Source: a virus. From it: a DNA stretch of 31,129 bases. A model generated the notes under the pieces. The model worked only from the letters and a program-made list of their open reading frames with translations. It searched no databases and had not been told where the DNA came from. The stretch is taken from positions 1-31,129 of the IMG/VR virus record IMGVR_UViG_3300031841_000887; one strand, given 5' to 3'. The translations under genes were made by a program, and so were the position numbers. Shown here piece by piece: positions 4,385-29,218 of this stretch (its first letter is position 1; the number at the start of each line of letters is the position of its first letter).

Positions 4385-4515
4385 ACGGATCATACGCACA
4401 GTTTGTACTAATTAGTGGTTTTGTTGTAGGATTGCTACATCAAGTAAATGAAGATAATACGCAAGAAGTATTGTTGTGTGTAGGTTTGTTTGGTATAAAA
4501 ATAGTGTGGTGGTAA
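4381..4515 (+). CDS. Small two-span membrane protein, 44 aa
   Basis: 44 residues with two hydrophobic segments, about 8-19 (FVLISGFVVGLL) and 31-43 (LLCVGLFGIKIVW), joined by an acidic loop. ATG overlaps the preceding TGA, and its TAA overlaps the start of the sigma-like gene. A small early membrane hairpin could be an exclusion or host-takeover factor, but nothing specific is visible. Confidence 0.6.
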   Translation: MNGSYAQFVLISGFVVGLLHQVNEDNTQEVLLCVGLFGIKIVWW

Positions 4516-4985
4516 ACGTACTAGAAAAATTAGCAAAGAAGCACAATGACTGGATCAAGATAGTCCAGTCTTTTGGTTGTGATCTTATGACTAGTGAAGA
4601 TCTGGTGCAAGATATGTATATCAAAATTCACTACTGGTATAAAGACCGAAACGACAGGTCGATAATGTTTAACAAAGACGAGATAAACTACTATTTTATA
4701 TACAAGGCATTGCGTACAGTTTGGTTGAATTATGTCAAAGAAGCGAACAGAAATAAAGACATTGATATTAGCACGTTGCATAGATCCACAGCATCAGAAT
4801 ATAACGCACAAGATCTATTAGACGCTGCAGAAGAAAAGTTGCAAGAATTGTACTGGTACGATAGAAAGATATTTGAGTTAGTATATAAAGACGGCATAAG
4901 TATGTTGCAGATCAGTGAAAAAACAGGTATTGACTATTGTAGCATAAAAAGAACAATTAGAAAAGTAAAAAAAAATTTGAGATGA
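4509..4985 (+). CDS. Sigma-factor-like protein (sigma-70 regions 2 and 4)
   Basis: 158 residues from the GTG at 4509, chosen because it overlaps the previous stop minimally; GTG 4476 and 4506 are alternatives. An N-terminal region-2-like helix (SEDLVQDMYIKIHYW, 29-43) is followed by an aromatic-rich stretch and an acidic linker. A C-terminal helix-turn-helix follows (about 121-156, KDGISMLQISEKTGIDYCSIKRTIRKVKK), as in sigma region 4. Such proteins replace the host sigma factor to switch transcription. The separate class B promoter motif before the virion operons is a natural candidate target; the pairing is inferred. Confidence 0.75.
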   Translation: MVNVLEKLAKKHNDWIKIVQSFGCDLMTSEDLVQDMYIKIHYWYKDRNDRSIMFNKDEINYYFIYKALRTVWLNYVKEANRNKDIDISTLHRSTASEYNAQDLLDAAEEKLQELYWYDRKIFELVYKDGISMLQISEKTGIDYCSIKRTIRKVKKNLR

Positions 4986-7315: not shown

Positions 7316-8109
7316 AAATTAAATTATTAGACGGTAAGCAATATGACAAGGATCTTTTGCTAGACAATATGTACGAAGACGATTTCTATTATGGGGAGTT
7401 GTCAAAATTAGCGTTATCATCATCAGCGATGAAGTTGCTATTAAGCAGTCCAAAAAAATACTATTATGTAACAAAGTACAGCGAAAACCTAGACACGCAA
7501 GGAATTAGGGACGGCAGACTTTTGCATACATTGGTATTAGAACCTCATAAGTTCGAGGAATTTGTATTTGTAGACGTTGCTAGTAAAAACACGAAGACGT
7601 ATAAAGAAGCAAAAGAAAAATACGGTACGGTATATACACGTACAGAAAAAGAACAGGCAGAAAAACTAGCAGATCAGTTGTTACGTAACGAAGCAGCAAT
7701 GCAATTATTAACTGGTTGTGAATTTGAAGTTCCTGCAATAGATCTAGTACAGGGTATGCCATTTCGTGGGAAAGCAGATATATTAAGCGACAGTCATATT
7801 TGCGACATTAAGACTACAACCGACATAGGTGGTTTTAAGTATGCAGCAGTAAAGTATGGATATGACGTACAAGCGTACCTCTACTGTGAATTGTTCAATA
7901 AGCAATACTATGACTTCAAGTTTCTAGTAATAGACAAGGGAAGTTGTGATTTAGCCATATTTGACGTAAGCGAGGAATTTTACTTGCAAGGTAAAGCAAA
8001 GGTTGAATTTGCAATAGAAAGGTATAACGAATACTTCGCCAATAAAGACTGGAATACAACAGAGATAGCAGAAGATTTAGACAACTATATTATTAGAGAC
8101 ATTTTATGA
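7312..8109 (+). CDS. RecE/Cas4-like PD-(D/E)XK exonuclease (DUF3799 type)
   Basis: 265 residues. LSSSAMKLLLSSPKKYYY (35-52) is the usual opening of this family. GRLLHTLVLEP supplies His72, FRGKADIL supplies Asp156, CDIKTT gives Asp165-x-Lys167, and YDVQAYLY supplies the Q motif near 187. This is the RecB-nuclease core of phage 5'-3' exonucleases that make single-stranded ends for recombination. No phage annealing protein was recognised beside it, though the SSB-like pair at 2676-3295 could serve. ATGA overlaps on both sides place it in the operon. Confidence 0.85.
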   Translation: MKIKLLDGKQYDKDLLLDNMYEDDFYYGELSKLALSSSAMKLLLSSPKKYYYVTKYSENLDTQGIRDGRLLHTLVLEPHKFEEFVFVDVASKNTKTYKEAKEKYGTVYTRTEKEQAEKLADQLLRNEAAMQLLTGCEFEVPAIDLVQGMPFRGKADILSDSHICDIKTTTDIGGFKYAAVKYGYDVQAYLYCELFNKQYYDFKFLVIDKGSCDLAIFDVSEEFYLQGKAKVEFAIERYNEYFANKDWNTTEIAEDLDNYIIRDIL

Positions 8110-8522
8110 AAAGTTCATATAGAGAAATAGCAGCACGGATCAACAAGCATAGAAACGTTGATATATTTAAAAATACCAGACAAAGAGAGGTGGTAGAAGC
8201 AAGAGCAGCATTCACGTATATATTGTCCGAGTACTTTCGGTTAGGTTGCAGTGCAATACGAGATATATACAGATCACAAGGTAAGAATATGAACCACGCT
8301 ACAATCCTACACGCTTTAAAAAACTGGGAGATATATGTATTCAATGACAATACGCTAAACGACTTGGTAATAGAAGTAATGGGAGGTACTAATTTCGAGC
8401 AGGATCAAGTAAAGATTAACTGGATCAAGCACAAGTTGACATATCTAGATAGCGAACAGGTGCAGGACATATACGAAAAGGTAGAAGAAAAATTTGAGGA
8501 ATTATGTTTGGTTCAATCCTAA
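8106..8522 (+). CDS. DnaA domain IV-like DNA-binding protein
   Basis: 138 residues. Residues 24-75 run TRQREVVEARAAFTYIL ... NMNHATILHALKNWE, matching the DNA-binding domain IV of DnaA. In DnaA the helix-turn-helix ends in a DHxTVxHA signature; here it is NHATILHA at 63-70. No AAA+ ATPase part is present. The C-terminal 55 residues are a charged helix. It could bind DnaA-box-like sites at a phage origin or interfere with host DnaA; both are inferences. It is last in the class A operon starting at 5818. Confidence 0.7.
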   Translation: MKSSYREIAARINKHRNVDIFKNTRQREVVEARAAFTYILSEYFRLGCSAIRDIYRSQGKNMNHATILHALKNWEIYVFNDNTLNDLVIEVMGGTNFEQDQVKINWIKHKLTYLDSEQVQDIYEKVEEKFEELCLVQS

Positions 8523-9393: not shown

Positions 9394-10066
9394 CCTGCAA
9401 GAAATCAAATCTCGTGACAGTAATGTGGTGTTTTTAATTAAACGCCAATTATTGTTTGAAGACCTATGCGAAACGTTAAAAGACGAAAAGGTATACAGCA
9501 CTGGATCGGATCAATACGAAAACATATACGACAGCGAAGATTGTGTAGTAGTTGATGCATTCGACAATAGAGAGGGTATTACACTAGACGAAGCCAAAAC
9601 GTATAACAAGAAAAAGACTGCAATAGTAAACTTTGCTTGTTGTAATGGATTGTTGCCAACAGCACAAGAAGTAAACGAAATATACGACAAGTTGAAATCG
9701 TATGGTTGGGAAAAAGTAAGTATGGGTGGTAGTTTAATGTTGTGGTACGAAAATATCAAGGCAGACGAAATACGTGTAGGAGAAGCATTTTTAACAGGAT
9801 ATAGCACGATATACAACGAGTATTATGCAAACTGTAAAAACCCTTTCGAAGTGTTAGTAGATATACACAAAGAGAATAAAGACAACTGGATCATCAATAC
9901 AGGTTTTGAATATCTAGGTGGTTTTACGAATTGTACGCCAGAATGTGTAAATACAGACTTCACAGTAATAAGTAAAAAGCATAAAATTAAAGTAGGTAAT
10001 AAGTTGAGGTTAGAACCAGATTATTACACGCTTATGAAACTAGCATTTAATGGATATATTAGATAG
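9356..10066 (+). CDS. Compact ornithine/alanine-racemase-like PLP barrel protein
   Basis: 236 residues, whereas full fold-III racemases have 350-370. N-terminal LKNNLQEIKSRDSNVVFLIKRQ aligns by eye with the opening strand holding the PLP lysine, here Lys29. PTAQEVNEIYDKLKSYGWEK, then MGGSLMLWY (123-131) and ADEIRVGEAFLTGYSTIY (136-153) follow ornithine racemase PTEEN...GGNSS...NHLRIGEAILLG. The end (VGNKLRLEPDYYTLMKLAFNGYI) matches its C-terminal barrel domain. The middle barrel strands are shortened. A PLP enzyme making a D-amino acid or related precursor is suggested; binding-only is possible. Confidence 0.68.
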   Translation: MLVTLKKEQLKNNLQEIKSRDSNVVFLIKRQLLFEDLCETLKDEKVYSTGSDQYENIYDSEDCVVVDAFDNREGITLDEAKTYNKKKTAIVNFACCNGLLPTAQEVNEIYDKLKSYGWEKVSMGGSLMLWYENIKADEIRVGEAFLTGYSTIYNEYYANCKNPFEVLVDIHKENKDNWIINTGFEYLGGFTNCTPECVNTDFTVISKKHKIKVGNKLRLEPDYYTLMKLAFNGYIR

Positions 10067-12047
10067 AACGTTTGGACTAGAATTAGAATTTGGAGATGTA
10101 GATCGTAGTAAGGTAAAACTTCCTGCAGGTTGGGGTTGGTCTCCAAACGAAAGATCAATAGTAAACAGTAACGCTACAAAATGTACGCCCACAGGCAATA
10201 TCGGTGGAGAACTTAATACTAGACCTCTAAAAAGAACGTTAGGCGATTACAGGGAGTTAAAACAAGTAATAGACGCTTGTTATAGTGCAGGTGGTGTCAA
10301 TATGTGGAATACAGGTTTTGACGGACATTTGTATATAGGAGATCTAGAACTAGAGGATCTTAAAAAGTTATTCGTATTAGGTTATTATACGCAGACGCTT
10401 ATGTTAAAAGTGTTTGACTTCCCAGACTGGTTTGACATTGAGCATTTGTGTCCGAAGATCAAGCATAATTTTGTAGGCAGGGTAAAAGGTGCAAAAAGTA
10501 TATCAGCACTTAAAAACATATTTGCGAATTCTAGTAACGTTGGTCATTTTAGGTTTGTGATAAACATTATGCCGTACTTCAAAACAAAGACGTTGGAGTT
10601 TAGGTTTTTCAATGGTACGAGACGATATAGAGAAACGTTAGAAACTATCAATTTTATGTACAGTTTTCTGGAATACGCATTAAGCCACGATGAAGAAGAC
10701 TACAAGAAAATAGATACCGAAGAAAAATTCATAGAAGCATTTGGTATAAAGTACGATATGCCTAGACGTACAGATCCATTGATCTTTGCAGAAAGTTACG
10801 AAGTAGCAGTACGCAATATATCAAAAGGGTTTGCACCTACACGTAAGATCCTAACTGCAATTCTGCATCACACAGAGGGAAAGATCTCACTAGTCAATCC
10901 ATTTAATTACGTCAGCGAATTAGCGTTATACAGCAAACGTAAGATCAAGATATACAACAATAACGAGCATAACAAAATTGTTATGAGTTTAGCGTTAGGA
11001 GAATTAGATCTAACGTATGATAATCACTTTGCAGTATTGAATGGCTACAAAGACGGCACACCAGAACGTGAATTGTGTTTGTTTTTTATATTCAGTAAAA
11101 CGCAGAAGTTCGATATGAAGTATGACTATGCGAACCTAGAATGGCAAAGTTATCGTGCAAGAATTAAAGACAGCATTGAAAAGATCAATCCGACAGCATT
11201 AGAAATGATCAAAATGTTTAGCGAGGTAGAATATGTAGACGGCACAATAATTGACGCACTAAACAATAAAGAGACCGTAGTATATCAGCAAGAGTACAAT
11301 AGTAAAAACAATTCAACAGTAACAGCGTTAAAAAAGAACAGCAATTACAACGGATCTTATGATAGGCAGTTAGTTAGTCATCACGATCTAAACGTTTGTA
11401 GTCATTTGTTGTCGGTTAGTAAGAATGAATTTTTGCCATACGAGACAGTAGCCAAAGATATGTCGATTAGGTTATACAGCAATAAGCCAAAATACGAGGG
11501 TTTAAGGACACCAGATTTAACGCCTAAACAAATTACATATAAAACACCTCCAGACGAATTTAAGATAACGCCAGATAGCAATATAACGATACAAGAGATA
11601 CCAGTTAATATGTTTTCTGTAATACAGCAAAAGTGTGTAAAGAAAGTAAGCAAATTTAGGTCTCCTGTTTTCTCGTATGTTATTATGTGTGATGATATGG
11701 TATTAGGTGCAGTAGGTTTTGACTGGGGTAAAAATATGAAAAGCGAATACGATCTATTCGTGTTGTCAGATTTCTGCACGAACAACAATATACGACTTAT
11801 GAGTAAGTTTATACTGTTTTGCATTAAAACAAAGGAGATGAAAAAACTTGTAGAACGTAAAGGAGTACAGGCAATGAATAAAGGGTATACGTTGGTATAT
11901 ACGACTATGCCAGTATCAATGAAATACAGAGGTGCATTTAAAAAAGTAAAGAACGATAGTCCCAGAAGTTTAAAGTATGAATTTGAATTTGGATCAATGG
12001 GTACGATCAAAGACGCAATTAAGGAATATATAAAACGAACGAAATGA
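10050..12047 (+). CDS. Amidoligase-like protein fused to a Mom/acetyltransferase-like domain
   Basis: 665 residues, the second-largest gene. Residues 8-210 carry the amidoligase_2 (COOH-NH2 ligase) pattern: FGLELEFG (8-15), GGELNTRPL (52-60), GFDGHLYIG (89-97, in place of CGxHVH) and KTLEFRFFNGT (180-190). These make an ATP-dependent amide bond in the glutamine-synthetase-like fold. A middle part (about 230-510) is unassigned. Residues 520-650 (VLGAVGF, LMSKFILFCI, YTLVYTTMPVSMKYRGAF) look like Mom-type or GNAT-type acyl-transfer proteins. The fusion suggests activation and transfer of an amino-acid-like group. The reduced CGxH motif is odd. Overlaps the racemase-like gene by 17 bp. Confidence 0.65.
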   Translation: MDILDRTFGLELEFGDVDRSKVKLPAGWGWSPNERSIVNSNATKCTPTGNIGGELNTRPLKRTLGDYRELKQVIDACYSAGGVNMWNTGFDGHLYIGDLELEDLKKLFVLGYYTQTLMLKVFDFPDWFDIEHLCPKIKHNFVGRVKGAKSISALKNIFANSSNVGHFRFVINIMPYFKTKTLEFRFFNGTRRYRETLETINFMYSFLEYALSHDEEDYKKIDTEEKFIEAFGIKYDMPRRTDPLIFAESYEVAVRNISKGFAPTRKILTAILHHTEGKISLVNPFNYVSELALYSKRKIKIYNNNEHNKIVMSLALGELDLTYDNHFAVLNGYKDGTPERELCLFFIFSKTQKFDMKYDYANLEWQSYRARIKDSIEKINPTALEMIKMFSEVEYVDGTIIDALNNKETVVYQQEYNSKNNSTVTALKKNSNYNGSYDRQLVSHHDLNVCSHLLSVSKNEFLPYETVAKDMSIRLYSNKPKYEGLRTPDLTPKQITYKTPPDEFKITPDSNITIQEIPVNMFSVIQQKCVKKVSKFRSPVFSYVIMCDDMVLGAVGFDWGKNMKSEYDLFVLSDFCTNNNIRLMSKFILFCIKTKEMKKLVERKGVQAMNKGYTLVYTTMPVSMKYRGAFKKVKNDSPRSLKYEFEFGSMGTIKDAIKEYIKRTK

Positions 12048-16433: not shown

Positions 16434-17099
16434 ATGCGAATAGAAATAGACATACCCACTAAACTATCAGAGATAACGTTAGATCAATACAGACGTTATT
16501 TAAAGTTGGCAGAAAGCAACACAGAGGGAGAACACAAAGACAGGTTTTTAGCATTGAAGATGTTAGAGATCTTTTGCAATATACCGTACAAAACAGGTAT
16601 GCAGTTAAAAATGTCAGATGTGAACAAAGCAATAGATCATTTGATAGGTTTGCTAAACAGCAATCCAGATCTAGTTATGCAATTTGAAATTGGAGATACG
16701 AAGTTTGGCTTCATTCCAAAATTAGATGATATGACGTTTGGAGAATTCATTGATCTAGACAAGTCATTAGGAGACTGGGACAAGATGCATCAAGCAATGG
16801 CAGTATTGTATAGACCGATAAAGAAACAGGTAGGTCAGTTTTACAGTATACAGGAATACAGGGGAGACAACTTCCACGAAGCAATGATGCTCACGCCACT
16901 AGACGCAGTATTTAGTAGTATAGTTTTTTTTTACAATTTAGGGATCGACTTATCGAAACTTACAGCGAACTATATGACGGAGGATCAGAACAGCCGACAG
17001 GACTTGCAGCAGGGTTTGGTAGAAAGTGGGGTTGGTATCAATCAGTTTACGCACTCTCTCAAGGAGATGTTAGACGGTTTGAGCATATCACAGGAATGA
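16434..17099 (+). CDS. Tail assembly chaperone, zero-frame product (gpG-like)
   Basis: 221 residues. Starts with MRIEIDIPTKLSEITLDQYR, a helical protein with FGFIPKLDDMTFGEFIDLDK (91-110) and HQAMAVLYRPI, typical of the first product of tail chaperone genes in Bacteroidetes siphophages. A nine-T run (GTT TTT TTT TAC) near codon 165 is a probable slippery site; a short zero-frame tail follows it. It precedes tail completion and tape-measure genes, as gpG does in lambda. Chaperones bind the tape measure during tail assembly. Confidence 0.75.
   Translation: MRIEIDIPTKLSEITLDQYRRYLKLAESNTEGEHKDRFLALKMLEIFCNIPYKTGMQLKMSDVNKAIDHLIGLLNSNPDLVMQFEIGDTKFGFIPKLDDMTFGEFIDLDKSLGDWDKMHQAMAVLYRPIKKQVGQFYSIQEYRGDNFHEAMMLTPLDAVFSSIVFFYNLGIDLSKLTANYMTEDQNSRQDLQQGLVESGVGINQFTHSLKEMLDGLSISQE
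16924..16932 (+). promoter_or_regulatory. Slippery site for probable -1 programmed frameshift
   Basis: Nine T in a row read in frame zero as GTT TTT TTT TAC, so T TTT TTT is an ideal heptamer. A -1 slip joins the upstream protein to the 84-residue open frame ending at 17185. That frame has no ATG, GTG or TTG before its conserved tryptophan motif. Confidence 0.72.
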
Positions 17100-23457: not shown

Positions 23458-23460
23458 ACC

Positions 23461-23486
23461 AGTTTAAAAAATTTAATTGTTATATA
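23461..23486 (+). promoter_or_regulatory. Class B late promoter for the protease operon
   Basis: AGTT (23461-23464), 14 bases, GTTATATA (23479-23486), then GAT and the ATG at 23490. Spacing matches the three other class B sites. No room exists for a normal leader, so the transcript may begin at or beside the ATG. Confidence 0.78.
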
Positions 23487-23489
23487 GAT

Positions 23490-24545
23490 ATGAAGATAGT
23501 AGAATTGATCCTTTCAGAAGACGAATTAAGTGCAGGAGTAGAAGCAATTAGTATTGTGGAAGAACCTGCAATAGAGGAAGACTTTGTTGCACTTAAAAAC
23601 CAAGAGGTAAAGGAGTATAAGTTTGCAGAAGTAGACAAAGAAAAGAAGATTTTAGTAGGTGCATTGCTAGTACCAAATAGACCAATTTACAGACAAGATA
23701 GCGAGGGCGAGGAATACTATATATATTTCAGCAGAGATACGGTCTTAAAAGCGTCTCAAATGTTCTTAAAAAATGGGTATCAAGCAAACTCAACACTAGA
23801 ACACGAGGACAAAATCACTGGTTTGACGCTTGTAGAAAGTTGGATCGTAGATGATCCAGAAATGGATAAGTCTAAATTATACGGTATGAACTTGCCAAAA
23901 GGTACGTGGGCAGGTACTGTAAAAGTAGACAATGAAGACATCTGGAATGAATATGTGAAGACAGGTAAAGTAAAAGGTTTCAGTATAGAGGGTTATTTTG
24001 CTGATAAGGCAGAACGTCCAAAAGAAGCGTTACCAGAAGAATTGTCAAAAGACGAACAGGCACAAAACGTACTGGATCAATTACACGAAATGTTGCTAAC
24101 GTTCCAAGAAACAGGTAAAGTATGCCTAGAAAGTTACAGCGACTACCCTAGTGGAGTAAAGAACAACGCAAAAAGGGCGTTAGAATGGGCAGATAAAAAC
24201 GGTTGGGGATCTTGTGGAACTCCAGTAGGTAAGCGTAGAGCAAATCAATTAGCAAAAGGTCAGCCAATAAGTGTAGAGACAATCAAAAGAATGGCAGGTT
24301 TTCTTAATAGACATAGAGGAAACTACAAAGACGCAAATTCATATGATGACGGCTGTGGATCTTTAATGTACGATGCGTGGGGAGGTAAAGCAGGTCTTCG
24401 TTGGGCGAATAAAAAACTCAATGAACTAGATATGTCAGCAATGGAGATATTAAAAGAACCTTGTTGGGACGGTTACGAGCAGATAGGCACAAAAATGAAA
24501 GACGGTAAAGAAGTGCCGAATTGCGTACCGATAAAACGAAAGTAA
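23490..24545 (+). CDS. XkdF-like prohead protease with C-terminal extra domain
   Basis: 351 residues. The first 175 match phage serine proteases of the XkdF group: ILVGALLVPNRPIYR (54-68), His105 in STLEHED, ESWIVDDPE (117-125) and Ser165 in VKGFSIEGYF. Residues 217-300 form a second module (YPSGVKNNAKRALEWADKNG, then SCGTPVGKRRANQLAKG and WGGKAGL). The tail CWDGYEQIGTKMKDGKEVPN recurs in prohead proteases of marine phages, from memory. The protease trims scaffold and capsid during maturation. The extra module might bind the head; its role is unknown. Confidence 0.8.
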   Translation: MKIVELILSEDELSAGVEAISIVEEPAIEEDFVALKNQEVKEYKFAEVDKEKKILVGALLVPNRPIYRQDSEGEEYYIYFSRDTVLKASQMFLKNGYQANSTLEHEDKITGLTLVESWIVDDPEMDKSKLYGMNLPKGTWAGTVKVDNEDIWNEYVKTGKVKGFSIEGYFADKAERPKEALPEELSKDEQAQNVLDQLHEMLLTFQETGKVCLESYSDYPSGVKNNAKRALEWADKNGWGSCGTPVGKRRANQLAKGQPISVETIKRMAGFLNRHRGNYKDANSYDDGCGSLMYDAWGGKAGLRWANKKLNELDMSAMEILKEPCWDGYEQIGTKMKDGKEVPNCVPIKRK

Positions 24546-24697
24546 TGAAACAAACAGAATTTATAACGCCAAGCAATACAAGTCCAGTGAGAAGCAATCG
24601 TGCTTGTTTATGTAAAGACGAGGACACGTATAGGATAGATTGTTGCAATGGATATTTAATCAATCAAGGCATAGGGAATATCAGTAGAACTTCTTAA
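24545..24697 (+). CDS. Small cysteine-rich structural-region protein (CLC...CC), 50 aa
   Basis: 50 residues, ATG overlapping the protease stop (TAATG). The core NRACLCKDEDTYRIDCCNGY then INQGIGNI matches a short conserved pattern I recall from flavobacterial phages near protease or head genes. Four cysteines could bind metal or form disulfides in the virion. Function is unknown. Confidence 0.72.
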   Translation: MKQTEFITPSNTSPVRSNRACLCKDEDTYRIDCCNGYLINQGIGNISRTS

Positions 24698-24703
24698 ACG
24701 CCC

Positions 24704-24729
24704 AGTTAGTAATTTTTAATAGTTATATG
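24704..24729 (+). promoter_or_regulatory. Class B late promoter for scaffold and capsid
   Basis: AGTT (24704-24707), 14 bases, GTTATATG (24722-24729), then TAT and ATG at 24733. An in-frame ATG at 24727 lies within the box, so 24733 is the better start. Confidence 0.78.
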
Positions 24730-24732
24730 TAT

Positions 24733-25344
24733 ATGAAAGCAACCGATATTTTAAAACGTTTCGAAGCATTTTTGAAAAGGTACGAGTTTGCTCAAATGAA
24801 ACTTGAAAACGGAACTATTCTAGAAGCAGAAGAATTTGCAGCAGAAAGTCCAGTTTTTATTGTAACAGATGATGAACGTGTGCCACTACCTATCGGAGAT
24901 TATGAACTTGAAAACGGATCAACACTGATCGTAGCAGACGAGGGAGTAATTGGTAGCATCGGAGAAGTAGAAAGTGCAGAGGAAAAAATCAAAGAAGATA
25001 TGAAAGAAAATCTTGAAGAAGTAAAAGAAGAAGTAGTTGAAGAAACTACAATGGGTTACGTTTCAAAAGAAGAACTTGAAGAAGCGAAAGAAGAACTCAA
25101 AGAAATGATCGAGGAAGTGAAAGCGAAACTCGAAGAAGCAAAGGAAGAAGTTAAAGAGGAAGTAGAAGCAGAAGAAGAAGAAAAAGAAGAATTGAAAGCA
25201 GAACTTTCAAAACCTGCAACAGAACCTTTGAAACACAATCCAGAAGCAGAAAAAACTGTAAGTCTTAAAAAGATCGGAAAGAAAAGAACGCAGTTGTCTG
25301 TAATGGATAGAATAATGGAAAAAATTAGTAACATCGAAAATTAA
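24733..25344 (+). CDS. Head scaffolding protein
   Basis: 203 residues from ATG 24733. Residues 20-80 are a small domain (LENGTILEAEEF ... PLPIGDYELENGSTLIVAD) that opens many Bacteroidetes-phage scaffold candidates. A long Glu/Lys coiled coil (about 82-160, many EE pairs) and a basic end (KKIGKKRTQLSV) follow. Position directly before the major capsid gene and the coiled-coil/basic-tail plan fit a scaffold that is removed by the protease upstream. The two genes share a class B promoter. Confidence 0.83.
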   Translation: MKATDILKRFEAFLKRYEFAQMKLENGTILEAEEFAAESPVFIVTDDERVPLPIGDYELENGSTLIVADEGVIGSIGEVESAEEKIKEDMKENLEEVKEEVVEETTMGYVSKEELEEAKEELKEMIEEVKAKLEEAKEEVKEEVEAEEEEKEELKAELSKPATEPLKHNPEAEKTVSLKKIGKKRTQLSVMDRIMEKISNIEN

Positions 25345-25352
25345 AAAGAGAA

Positions 25353-26279
25353 ATGGCACAACCACAACCAACAATCACGACTACCTATGCAGGAGAGTTT
25401 GCAGGAGAGTATATTTCGGCAGCACTTTTGTCTGGTAATACTTTGGCTAATGATCTTATCACAGTAAAGCCAAACGTAAAGTACAAATCTGTATTAAAGA
25501 CTTTCGCAACAGATACATCTAGCATTGTAGATGCGTCTTGTGATTTCACAGATACAGCAGATATTTCACTAGCAGAAAAAATCCTTGAACCTAGCGAATT
25601 TCAGCAGAATATGATCTTGTGTAAGGATCAGTTTCAGTCAGACTGGGAAGCAGTACAAATGGGTTTCTCTGCATTTGATAACTTGCCACCTAAATTCAGC
25701 GACTTCTTAATTGCTCACGCATCACAGCAAGTTGCTCAATTCGTTGAAAACAACATCTGGGACGGTGCAGGTACAGCAAACACTTTCGAGGGTTTCACTG
25801 CAAAACTAACAGCAGACGGAGACGTTAATGACGTAGTAGGTACTACTGTAAACGCAGGAAACGTAATTACAGAATTAGGAAAAGTTGTAGATGCAATTCC
25901 TAGTGCAGTATATGGTAAAGACGATTTATTCTTGTATGTTCCTCAAAACGTTGCTCGTGCTTATGTACGTGCGTTAGGTGGGTTCGGTACTGCAGGTGCT
26001 AATGGTGTAGACAACAAAGGTACACTATGGTATGGAATGGGTAACGACCTTGCATTTGACGGTGTTAAACTTGCAGTTGCAAATGGTCTTAGAGACAATA
26101 CAATCATTGCTGCACAGAAATCAAACTTGTACTTTGGTACTGGTCTACTTTCAGATCACAACGAAGTACGTGTTCTAGATATGGCAGAAATTGACGGATC
26201 ACAACAAGTCCGAGTAGTAATGCGTTTTACAGCAGGTGTACAGCACGGTATTGGTAGCGACATCGTATTGTATTCGTAA
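25353..26279 (+). CDS. Major capsid protein (HK97-like)
   Basis: 308 residues. It begins ITTTYAGEFAGEYISAALLS, continues with KSVLKTFATDTSSI, and has the FTAGVQHGIGSDIV ending of Bacteroidetes-phage HK97-fold capsid proteins. It lies between scaffold and a strong terminator. Codons shift to GCT, GTT, CTT, TTC and ATC, consistent with heavy expression. No obvious delta domain or decoration protein is present. The strong terminator at 26304 gives it a separately stoppable message. Confidence 0.9.
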   Translation: MAQPQPTITTTYAGEFAGEYISAALLSGNTLANDLITVKPNVKYKSVLKTFATDTSSIVDASCDFTDTADISLAEKILEPSEFQQNMILCKDQFQSDWEAVQMGFSAFDNLPPKFSDFLIAHASQQVAQFVENNIWDGAGTANTFEGFTAKLTADGDVNDVVGTTVNAGNVITELGKVVDAIPSAVYGKDDLFLYVPQNVARAYVRALGGFGTAGANGVDNKGTLWYGMGNDLAFDGVKLAVANGLRDNTIIAAQKSNLYFGTGLLSDHNEVRVLDMAEIDGSQQVRVVMRFTAGVQHGIGSDIVLYS

Positions 26280-26303
26280 TTAGATTTAGTTAATAACCGA
26301 AAG

Positions 26304-26337
26304 GGGTAGGTTGGAATAGTCTTGCCTACCCTTTTTT
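26304..26337 (+). terminator. Rho-independent terminator after major capsid gene
   Basis: GGGTAGG (26304-26310) pairs with CCTACCC (26325-26331) across a 14-base loop, then six T. The tail tube gene begins 19 bp later without a recognisable promoter, so partial readthrough is expected. Confidence 0.87.
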
Positions 26338-26355
26338 AGTAAAAAGAAAAATAAT

Positions 26356-26904
26356 ATGGCTTGTAATTTAACAACAGGAAGAACAGAACCGTGCAAGGAT
26401 AGTGTAGGTGGTTTGACAAAGGTTTACTTTGTAGACTTTGAAGACTTTACTATTGACGGTGTGTCTTACGTAGGATCAACAGATGCTATTGATGCTATCA
26501 CGGCAGCAGATACGTCTATCACGGCTTATCAGTATGATTTAAAGGGTACATCTTCGTTCGAGCAAACAATCACATCTAGCAGAGAAAACGGTACGACATT
26601 TTATGATCAAAACTTGACACTACAATTTAAGAAATTAGATAGTGCAACACACGATGAAATTGCTTTGTTGGCAGTTGCTCGTCCACACGTATTTGTAGAA
26701 GACAATAACGGAAACATTTTCTCAGCAGGTCTGGAATTTGGTATGGACGTAAACGGTGGAACAATCGTAACAGGTGCAGCAATGGGAGATTTGTCTGGTT
26801 ATACTTTGACACTTCAAGGTATGGAGAAAAAACCTGCAAACTTCTTATCGCAATCACTAGCATCAACAGGTGTAACAGTTTCAGCGACACAGATCAATCC
26901 GTAA
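26356..26904 (+). CDS. Major tail tube protein
   Basis: 182 residues. The start MACNLTTGRTEPCKDSVGGL followed by KVYFVDFEDF is the usual opening of tail tube proteins in this phage group. Beta-rich throughout, with SSFEQTITSSRENGTTFYDQ and a final LTLQGMEKKPA. It polymerises into the tail tube on the tape measure. It is bracketed by two terminators. Confidence 0.85.
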   Translation: MACNLTTGRTEPCKDSVGGLTKVYFVDFEDFTIDGVSYVGSTDAIDAITAADTSITAYQYDLKGTSSFEQTITSSRENGTTFYDQNLTLQFKKLDSATHDEIALLAVARPHVFVEDNNGNIFSAGLEFGMDVNGGTIVTGAAMGDLSGYTLTLQGMEKKPANFLSQSLASTGVTVSATQINP

Positions 26905-26927
26905 TAGGATCATTTAGAAGCAGAAAG

Positions 26928-26953
26928 GGGACGTATATCGTCCCTTTTTTTTT
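26928..26953 (+). terminator. Rho-independent terminator after tail tube gene
   Basis: GGGACG (26928-26933), loop TATAT, CGTCCC (26939-26944), nine T. A class B promoter follows at 26965. Confidence 0.9.
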
Positions 26954-26964
26954 ACCCTTGCACC

Positions 26965-26990
26965 AGTTGTAATTTTTTTCTTGTTATATA
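26965..26990 (+). promoter_or_regulatory. Class B late promoter for the portal operon
   Basis: AGTT (26965-26968), 14 bases, GTTATATA (26983-26990), AGT, then ATG at 26994. Same layout as at 23461 and 24704. Confidence 0.78.
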
Positions 26991-26993
26991 AGT

Positions 26994-27377
26994 ATGGAGA
27001 TATTAAGTACAACAGGAAATAGTACGATCAAAGTTATACCTAGAAAGGAAGTAAGCAATGCCTTTGTTCTGTATAAAAACGTTTCAACAAACAGAGATAG
27101 ATCAGTTTTTGATCTTGACTTAACGTATTTAGAAAACCACGTATCTTTTGTTTTAGAAGAAGACACGAAAACTGTTTTAAAAGTAAAAGAGGGACAGTTT
27201 GTACATTTCGAATTATACGAGGGTACTACACTTGCCGAAACAAACAATCTGTTATATAGAGGTCGGATCTTTTTTACCGATCAAACAATAAACCAAAACG
27301 CAGGAGATACATACAGCGTTAATAAAGACGTTTACGAAGAAGCACAAGTGGGCAATAATGACTACATAATTTACTAG
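26994..27377 (+). CDS. Unknown 127-aa beta-rich virion protein before portal
   Basis: 127 residues. STIKVIPRKEV, LTYLENHVSFVLEEDT and FVHFELYEGTTLAETNNLLY are repeats of beta strands seen in small conserved proteins that come between tail tube and portal in related phages. ATG 3 bp after the class B box, 2 bp gap to the portal. A head-tail joining or decoration role is inferred only from place. Confidence 0.68.
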   Translation: MEILSTTGNSTIKVIPRKEVSNAFVLYKNVSTNRDRSVFDLDLTYLENHVSFVLEEDTKTVLKVKEGQFVHFELYEGTTLAETNNLLYRGRIFFTDQTINQNAGDTYSVNKDVYEEAQVGNNDYIIY

Positions 27378-27379
27378 TA

Positions 27380-29218
27380 ATGAGTGAAATAAAAATAGTA
27401 CAATTAAAATCGTACACTTCGCCAGATATTAAAATAGAAAAGCGAAAAGATTACGTAACATACGGAAGCAAAAATAACTACTTTTCGTACTTAATAGACA
27501 GGTATACAGGTAGTCCGACTAACAATGCAGTGATCAACGGTATCAGTCAAATGGTTTTTGGTAAAGGACTAGATGCAACAGACAGCAACAAAAAGCCAGA
27601 AGAATACGCACAGGCAGTAACATTGTTTCACAAAGATTGTGTACGCAAGTTAGTGTACGATCTCAAACTTATGGGACAGTGTGCAATACAGGTTATTTAT
27701 TCAAAAGACAGAACAAGAATAGCACAGATCGAGCATATGCCAGTAGAAACACTTGCAATGGAGAAGTGCAATGACAAGGGAGAAATAGAGGGGTTCTATT
27801 ATTGCAGTGATTGGAGTAAGATCAAATCGAACGAAACGTTAAAGCGTATACCTGCATTTGGAACTAGCAAGGAAGCAATAGAAATACTGTATGTACGCCC
27901 TTATGTAGCAGGACATTATTATTATAGTCCAGTAGACTATCAAGGAGGTTTGCAATATGCAGAATTAGAAGAAGAAATAAGCAACTATCACTTGAACAAT
28001 ATATTGAATGGTCTAGCACCCAGTATGCTAGTTAATTTCAATAACGGTGTGCCGAATGAAGAAGAACGTGCAAACATTGAAAAACGGATCTATGACAAGT
28101 TTAGTGGATCTAGCAATGCAGGTAAGTTTATATTGTCATTCAACGAAAACGCAGATACGGCAGCAAGTATAGAGCCAGTGCAATTATCAGATGCTCACAA
28201 TCAATATCAGTTTTTAAGTGATGAGAGTATGAAAAAGATAATGGTGGCACATAGAGTGGTAAGTCCAATGTTACTTGGTATTAAGGATCAGACAGGTTTA
28301 GGGAATAATGCCGATGAACTAAAAACAGCCAGTACGTTAATGGATAACGTTGTAATCAGACCATTGCAGAATTTATTGATAGATGCGTTTGATAAGATAC
28401 TAGCGTATAACAATATCAGTTTAAACCTTTACTTTAAAACACTGCAGCCACTAGAATTTGTTGATCTAGAAAACGTAGTAGATGCAGAAACACGAGAAGA
28501 AGAAACAGGTCAAAAGATAGAAGAAAAGGTAACAGAGACACTTGCTAAATTATCAGCAGAGGATAAAGGAGATATTGAATTAAGCGATGACGAATATCTA
28601 GGTATATTGTCAGAATTGCACCCAGACATAATTACAGACGAATGGGAAGAAGTTGTCTCACGTCCATACAGCGTTTCTAACGACACTAACGAGGAATGGG
28701 CATCACAATATATCAAAGCAAAGGAAACAACGCTACAAAAGTTGGCAAATGCCGTTACAGCAAAACCTAGTGGGTTCAGTTATTTGGACAAATCGTTTTA
28801 CAAGATACGATATAGATACCAAGAAAGACACAGCAGTGATAATACACGTAAGTTTTGCAAGGCAATGATGTCAAGAAGTGGCAGAGGGTTAGTATACCGA
28901 TTAGAAGACATTGATAAGGCAAGTAGAGACGGTGTAAACAGAAGTTTCGGACACAAAGGTAAGCCGTATGATTTATTTCGTTTTAAAGGTGGAGTAAATT
29001 GTGGACACTACTGGGAACAGGTATTGTACAGATTAAAGAAAAAGACAGACGGATCGTATTACAAAGACACAGGCAATATAGGTCAGTTTGAGGAAACAGA
29101 TAGCATACCGAAAACGTATGTAGCAAGTCCAAGAGGATCGAAAGACAGCGTAATTGCACCTGCAGATATGCCAAACAATGGACACCACCCAAACTGGAAA
29201 CCTAGTAATAAGAAGTAA
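27380..29218 (+). CDS. Portal protein with MuF-like C-terminal domain
   Basis: 612 residues. The first about 380 form the portal fold: RKDYVTYGSKNNYFSYLIDRY, GISQMVFGKGL, LGIKDQTGLGNNADELKTAS. The acidic linker at 380-440 precedes a C-terminal region (479-570) with FCKAMMSRSGRGLVYRLEDI and GGVNCGHYWEQVLYR, resembling the Cys/His-rich end of MuF/SPP1 gp7-type minor head proteins fused here. Portal rings form the DNA gate. A separate head morphogenesis gene was not found, so the fusion probably supplies it. Confidence 0.85.
   Translation: MSEIKIVQLKSYTSPDIKIEKRKDYVTYGSKNNYFSYLIDRYTGSPTNNAVINGISQMVFGKGLDATDSNKKPEEYAQAVTLFHKDCVRKLVYDLKLMGQCAIQVIYSKDRTRIAQIEHMPVETLAMEKCNDKGEIEGFYYCSDWSKIKSNETLKRIPAFGTSKEAIEILYVRPYVAGHYYYSPVDYQGGLQYAELEEEISNYHLNNILNGLAPSMLVNFNNGVPNEEERANIEKRIYDKFSGSSNAGKFILSFNENADTAASIEPVQLSDAHNQYQFLSDESMKKIMVAHRVVSPMLLGIKDQTGLGNNADELKTASTLMDNVVIRPLQNLLIDAFDKILAYNNISLNLYFKTLQPLEFVDLENVVDAETREEETGQKIEEKVTETLAKLSAEDKGDIELSDDEYLGILSELHPDIITDEWEEVVSRPYSVSNDTNEEWASQYIKAKETTLQKLANAVTAKPSGFSYLDKSFYKIRYRYQERHSSDNTRKFCKAMMSRSGRGLVYRLEDIDKASRDGVNRSFGHKGKPYDLFRFKGGVNCGHYWEQVLYRLKKKTDGSYYKDTGNIGQFEETDSIPKTYVASPRGSKDSVIAPADMPNNGHHPNWKPSNKK

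Follow-up and report, generated by a model that had tools for sequence, protein, structure and literature searches.

What drives the virion genes of the phage represented by IMG/VR record IMGVR_UViG_3300031841_000887, and do the transcripts of these genes begin at their start codons? We analyzed the record over its full length of 31,129 nucleotides (the window). A sequence-only reading had pointed to a box, AGTT-N14-GTTATATR, ahead of the protease, scaffold/capsid and portal operons and had interpreted it as a promoter that yields leaderless mRNAs. The motif, its spacing and its conservation, a gene for a sigma factor, and paired changes of the sigma recognition helix and the -35 box can all be read in the DNA. 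They are best explained by a phage-encoded sigma factor resembling those of the extracytoplasmic function (ECF) type, which would very probably drive late operons with a leaderless first cistron.

A motif that ends on the start codons of virion operons

The full motif, AGTT-N14-GTTATATR-N3-ATG, has exactly three occurrences on the two strands of the whole window, at 23461-23492, 24704-24735 and 26965-26996, whereas 100 dinucleotide shuffles gave 0.01 on average and at most 1. Each copy ends on the start codon of the first gene in a virion operon: the protease gene, a scaffold-like gene that is followed by the capsid gene, and a small gene that is followed by the portal gene (Table 1). The identical spacing claimed for these three operons, with the ATG three bases after the box, was therefore recovered. 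The -35 side reads CCAGTT in all three copies, and no other full match with that spacing was found in the window. The fourth copy, described earlier as having a 19-base leader, is also present as stated, with one mismatch (P4 in Table 1). Open reading frame (ORF) callers begin the scaffold-like gene at 24727, at an ATG inside the box, but we place its start at 24733 because this is the conserved start in relatives. AGTT-N14-GTTATATR alone, allowing up to two mismatches, is not enriched (17 matches vs 12.5 by chance), so the signal resides in the exact motif together with its position.

Conservation in related phages

Relatives were collected by scanning IMG/VR with the capsid and protease proteins and keeping the best 80 of each from several hundred stretches; conservation was counted in non-redundant upstream clusters. 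GTTA starting at -11 from the ATG is found in 22 of 42 protease clusters, 14 of 18 clusters for the portal operon, 17 of 36 for the gene at 16434 and 7 of 52 for the scaffold, compared with 0.1-0.3 in shuffles. Before eight control genes (capsid, portal, tail and five others) the count at this position was 0 or 1. Absence of the motif from the same genes in relatives had been named in advance as a possible refutation; instead, it stands before the same genes at the same distance from the ATG and is missing before the controls.

A profile of 93 sites, counted from the A of the ATG, reads C-12 G-11 T-10 T-9 A-8 T-7 A-6 T-5 A-4 N-3 R-2 T-1 ATG, with G-11, T-10 and T-9 at about 97% each, T-1 at about 97%, and an additional A-rich box at about -31 to -27. 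Where protease genes do not have the motif, the upstream sequence is generally coding-like and the genes are apparently co-transcribed.

The same -10/ATG geometry occurs at six operons of a cultured relative, Nonlabens phage P12024S (Inhavirus), which has a portal 37% identical to that of the window and a sigma of the same family. Six CGTTA sites are located exactly at the annotated starts of its genes 01, 05, 08, 41, 44 and 45, most of them with AAACAAA upstream; the sigma recognition helix and the details of the -35 (AAACAAA) differ from those of the window. Because this cultured relative infects a Bacteroidetes bacterium, the host of the window phage is probably also a member of this phylum.

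In two relatives (L041 and L086) the scaffold is extended in frame at its N-terminus, and the ATG of the extension falls exactly at the leaderless position. This suggests that the position may be kept even where the scaffold coding sequence shifts.

A predicted phage-encoded ECF-like sigma factor

The ORF at 4506-4985 gives a weak match to Sigma70_r4_2 (PF08281, E=3e-4, 20.8 bits vs a cut-off of 25.7). Of 45 sigma relatives, 17 matched Sigma70_r2 (PF04542), and the cut-off was exceeded in 3 of 28 records. Searching PDB with individual sigma sequences returned nothing useful and an alignment profile was needed; that of the 45 relatives matched SigL across both domains. The AlphaFold2 (AF2) model, with a predicted local distance difference test score (pLDDT) of 86.8, consists of two helical domains, and sigma2 plus sigma4 only, at about 20 kDa, is the architecture of ECF sigmas. 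Its best PDB neighbors in Foldseek are SigE, SigL, SigH, AlgU, SigK and SigW. Nearly all of the first 25 matches are ECF sigmas aligned over both domains, with global template modeling (TM) scores that are low because the domain orientation differs. The gene is present in 23 of 27 partial relative records carrying late genes, as well as in P12024S, where the sigma is P12024S_33 and the record annotates Sigma-70 region 2. A human faecal phage fragment (MT839689.1, 2270-2701) encodes a sigma 28% identical to that of the window, and the family may extend to gut phages.

The recognition helix of the sigma and the -35 box appear to change together, which is a strong point for their pairing. Sigmas with SIKRT helices (the window, G001, L010/L166 and L175) accompany CCAGTT or ACAAGTT in six of eight sites, the other two being the close variants CCAGTAG and CCACTTG. 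Those with SLYNT/SLRNT helices accompany a (C/T)AAA -35 in 38 of 39 sites (19 records), and helices of other classes pair with other -35 boxes. A clade with SIFDT helices, comprising L241/L242 (G005), L248 (G008), L078 and L083, has a box that diverges from these, TAACA...GGTTAACCTATT, immediately ahead of the ATG; on sequence grounds this would be another sigma/promoter pair.

That the -35 follows the recognition helix of the phage protein argues against the host housekeeping sigma reading the same late promoters, perhaps with a phage activator at CCAGTT or CAAAA, in which case the mRNAs would still be leaderless. In favor of that reading, the box resembles a -10 and is AT-rich, the small phage sigma could have its targets elsewhere, and no phage RNA polymerase was found in 25 records, so the host RNA polymerase is probably used. 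However, the boxes do not have the Bacteroidetes element TANNTTTG (PMC6847099), nor TTTG, and thus not the TTTG / TANNTTTG arrangement at -33/-7 of the housekeeping sigma ABfr; TTTG-N-TANNTTTG has one chance-level match in the window, located elsewhere. Their G-11T-10T-9 core is instead ECF-type (PMC6411747), and we regard reading by the housekeeping sigma as quite unlikely. A scan of sigma70-type promoters gave fewer matches than in shuffles and was not used.

Predicted transcription start

For the Mycobacterium tuberculosis ECF sigma SigH, a crystal structure and mutagenesis define a -10 element G-11T-10T-9 relative to the start site (PMC6411747). The phage G-11T-10T-9, counted from the ATG, matches this numbering and by analogy would set +1 on the A of the AUG. 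Transcription is predicted to start there, with an uncertainty of about 1-2 nt, which is consistent with the earlier suggestion of a start at or in the ATG. The boxes therefore carry a CGT/GTT-type -10 at -11 to -9, set for a start on an AUG that is itself the start codon. ECF-type promoters with a CGT -10 box have also been described in Flavobacterium psychrophilum (PMC9723704).

Alternatively, transcription from this promoter could begin within the gene or a few bases ahead of the AUG, in which case the annotated AUG would not be the true start, or the leader would be short rather than absent. Reading the -10 as TATATA does give a short discriminator, SigL promoters function with 4-7 nt from the -10 to the downstream duplex (PMC6372665), and in some relatives the ATG is located 1-4 nt downstream. 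Yet the protein N-termini are conserved from the AUG in question, the T-1/R+1 initiator is kept at its exact place even without an ATG following, and the P12024S starts were annotated independently. A shifted start is thus rather improbable.

A leaderless capsid mRNA had been called unusual for Bacteroidetes. The word unusual is fair if not taken as absolute: leaderless mRNAs make up 5.5% in F. psychrophilum (PMC9723704), Bacteroides thetaiotaomicron has about 3.7% with a 5' untranslated region (UTR) under 10 nt (PMC7366714), and Flavobacterium johnsoniae has 87% with leaders over 10 nt (PMC6847099). The mention of the capsid is not supported as worded, since the capsid gene is the second cistron; the capsid itself is not leaderless, and the cistron expected to be so is that of the scaffold.

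Promoter or translation signal

A strict scan, independent of genes and using only the -35 and -10 parts, gave 75 non-redundant sites with a downstream gene. The ATG lies exactly 5 nt after GTTATA in 46 of these, and every other offset accounts for at most four sites. A loose scan placed the ATG at the +1 position in 65 of 173 sites; because its set of leadered sites was noisy, the strict set was used for these. In the 23 strict sites with an ATG further downstream, T-1 and a purine at +1 remain at the unchanged place in 18. The initiator thus appears to belong to the promoter, and the ATG to have been placed onto the initiator. Among the promoter sites of relatives, no GTG and no TTG was found as the start codon at the leaderless position.

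We also considered T at -1 by itself as a promoter mark. The capsid gene and several others prefer A/G there, but g26356 and the portal gene prefer T too, which weakens it; the persistence of T-1 at the promoter-defined position in leadered sites appears to be the stronger point. Terminase small-subunit genes of relatives (L182:6934, L185:6855, L192:15526, L237:8104, L179:15056 and L188:11121) have the same promoter with 22-28 nt leaders, and a sequence resembling GATTGAATAA or GATTAATCAATC recurs in several of these leaders.

If the element acted in translation or RNA processing on longer transcripts, with no promoter involved, a fixed distance to the start codon would also be expected. We consider such a role very improbable, given the conserved partner box one promoter spacing upstream, the co-variation of the element with the sigma factor, and the existence of leadered copies (with an unchanged initiator) alongside internal cistrons without the element. 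Folding of the window sequence gave no special RNA fold around P1 and P2, and a terminator lies just upstream of P3. With strong terminators both after the capsid gene and directly before P3, the portal operon needs its own start, and a T-run ahead of the portal-operon promoter recurs in relatives. The earlier preference for a promoter over a ribosome-binding signal is well supported by the -35 partner, the sigma, the leadered copies and the terminators between units. Least credible of all are promoters of a phage single-subunit RNA polymerase that start just after the TATA and leave a 3-nt leader: T7-type promoters do have a TATA-like -4 to -1 part directly before the start, but the window has no unassigned ORF of suitable size, and PF00940 was not found in 25 records, a weak negative since the positive control gave no match.

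Proposed mechanism

We infer that the phage makes a small ECF-type sigma factor that, together with the host RNA polymerase, recognizes late promoters with a -35 CCAGTT and a -10 (T/C)GTTATATA late in infection. In the protease, scaffold and portal operons, the position of the -10 would bring the RNA start to the A of the AUG, give or take 1-2 nt. Each late operon would thereby have a leaderless first cistron, presumably translated from its 5'-AUG, and the cistrons that follow, such as capsid and portal, would be translated from internal A-rich start sites.

Several observations weigh against this mechanism. The sigma of the window scores under the Pfam gathering cut-off. The -35/-10 spacer is 14 bp (CCAGTT to G-11) or 15 bp (CAAAA), and the SigH optimum is 17; with TACAAA or TGCAAA at -33 to -28 taken as the -35, it becomes 16 bp, and the typical ECF spacer of ~16-17 bp is not strictly defining. 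Many relatives have protease and scaffold genes without the promoter that appear to be co-transcribed, and read-through from upstream could give leadered transcripts. Some have the same promoter with 1-28 nt leaders; leaderlessness is thus favored at particular genes, not required by the promoter. Finally, the helix/-35 covariation is not conclusive, because few independent changes underlie it.

A broader version of the ECF-type mechanism is doubtful: late infection could be a coupled switch of transcription and translation, in which the late mRNAs made with the sigma are leaderless by design and the ribosomes of the infected cell favor 5'-AUG messages over leadered host mRNAs. The ribosome preference could, as an equally tentative suggestion, come from 70S initiation or infection-altered ribosomes.

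Comparison with known systems

Late sigma factors encoded by phages are known, and so, separately, are leaderless mRNAs. The former include T4 gp55, SPO1 gp28 and gp33/34, and AR9 gp226. Like these, the window sigma would be encoded by the phage and, as a specificity factor, redirect a multisubunit RNA polymerase to late promoters; unlike these, it is ECF-type, is predicted to recognize both -35 and -10, and has promoters that coincide with start codons. The lambda cI mRNA made from PRM is leaderless and likewise comes from a phage promoter that starts transcription at the AUG, but it concerns a single regulatory gene under host sigma70 rather than an arrangement conserved at several late operons. 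In AR9, 5' UTRs are 26-491 nt long (PMC5312081).

Leaderless genes of Actinobacteria and Deinococcus-Thermus have a -10 signal about 10-12 bp before the start codon (PMC3160421), similarly set so that the transcript begins at the AUG. They use the housekeeping TANNNT, whereas the window phage has an ECF-type CGTTATATA in a phylum with few leaderless mRNAs. ECF sigmas such as M. tuberculosis SigH and SigL, Escherichia coli SigE and Bacillus subtilis SigW resemble the window sigma in having sigma2 and sigma4 only, about 160-200 aa, the fold found by Foldseek, and GTT at -11 to -9 (PMC6411747). The window sigma differs in being phage-encoded and very divergent (under Pfam cut-offs), with no anti-sigma identified, and its system differs in the -35 (CCAGTT or CAAAA), the 14-15 bp spacer and the virion operons served. 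In the open papers searched, with incomplete coverage, we found no phage sigma of the ECF type described as having promoters fused to virion-operon start codons.

For a phage group that is large (more than 500 matched stretches carry the capsid gene) and mostly uncultured, the system would supply a defined sigma/promoter pair, and the group's cultured representative P12024S makes the claim directly testable. The system also offers a natural test of whether essential and presumably abundant proteins are translated from leaderless mRNAs in a phylum without Shine-Dalgarno signals and, in its -35/recognition-helix pairs, a natural series for studying ECF specificity.

Other features of the window

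Table 1. Coordinates of promoters, genes and terminators in the window.
Feature	Position	Strand	Details
ECF-like sigma factor	4506-4985	+	sigma2 + sigma4, about 160 aa; start GTG 4506 or 4509; recognition helix DYCSIKRTIRKVKK
Promoter copy P4	16389-16414	+	AATT variant of -35; ATG 16434 19 bases on; leadered here, leaderless geometry in many relatives
Late promoter P1 (predicted)	23459-23489	+	-35 CCAGTT 23459-23464; -10 TGTTATATA 23478-23486; T-1 23489; predicted start = A of ATG 23490
Head maturation protease (Peptidase_S78_2)	23490-24545	+	predicted leaderless first cistron
Late promoter P2 (predicted)	24702-24732	+	-35 CCAGTT 24702-24707; -10 AGTTATATG 24721-24729; predicted start = A of ATG 24733
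Scaffold-like gene	24733-25344	+	predicted leaderless first cistron
Probable major capsid protein	25353-26279	+	second cistron; without promoter motif; A-rich internal start region
Intrinsic terminator after capsid	26299-26336	+	stem with T6; -21.2 kcal/mol
Intrinsic terminator just upstream of P3	26922-26953	+	stem with T-run; -16 kcal/mol
Late promoter P3 (predicted)	26963-26993	+	-35 CCAGTT 26963-26968; -10 TGTTATATA 26982-26990; predicted start = A of ATG 26994
First gene of portal operon	26994-27377	+	predicted leaderless first cistron
Portal	27380-29218	+	next gene after 26994-27377 in portal operon; portal cistron itself not leaderless

Two further genes of the window have unusual domain content. 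One (10050-12047) encodes a 665-aa protein combining amidoligase_2, DAM-like-phage2 and phage GNAT-like Pfam domains, and the other (8106-8522) a small protein with a helix-turn-helix (HTH)-like domain of the DnaA C-terminal (DnaA-box binding) kind.

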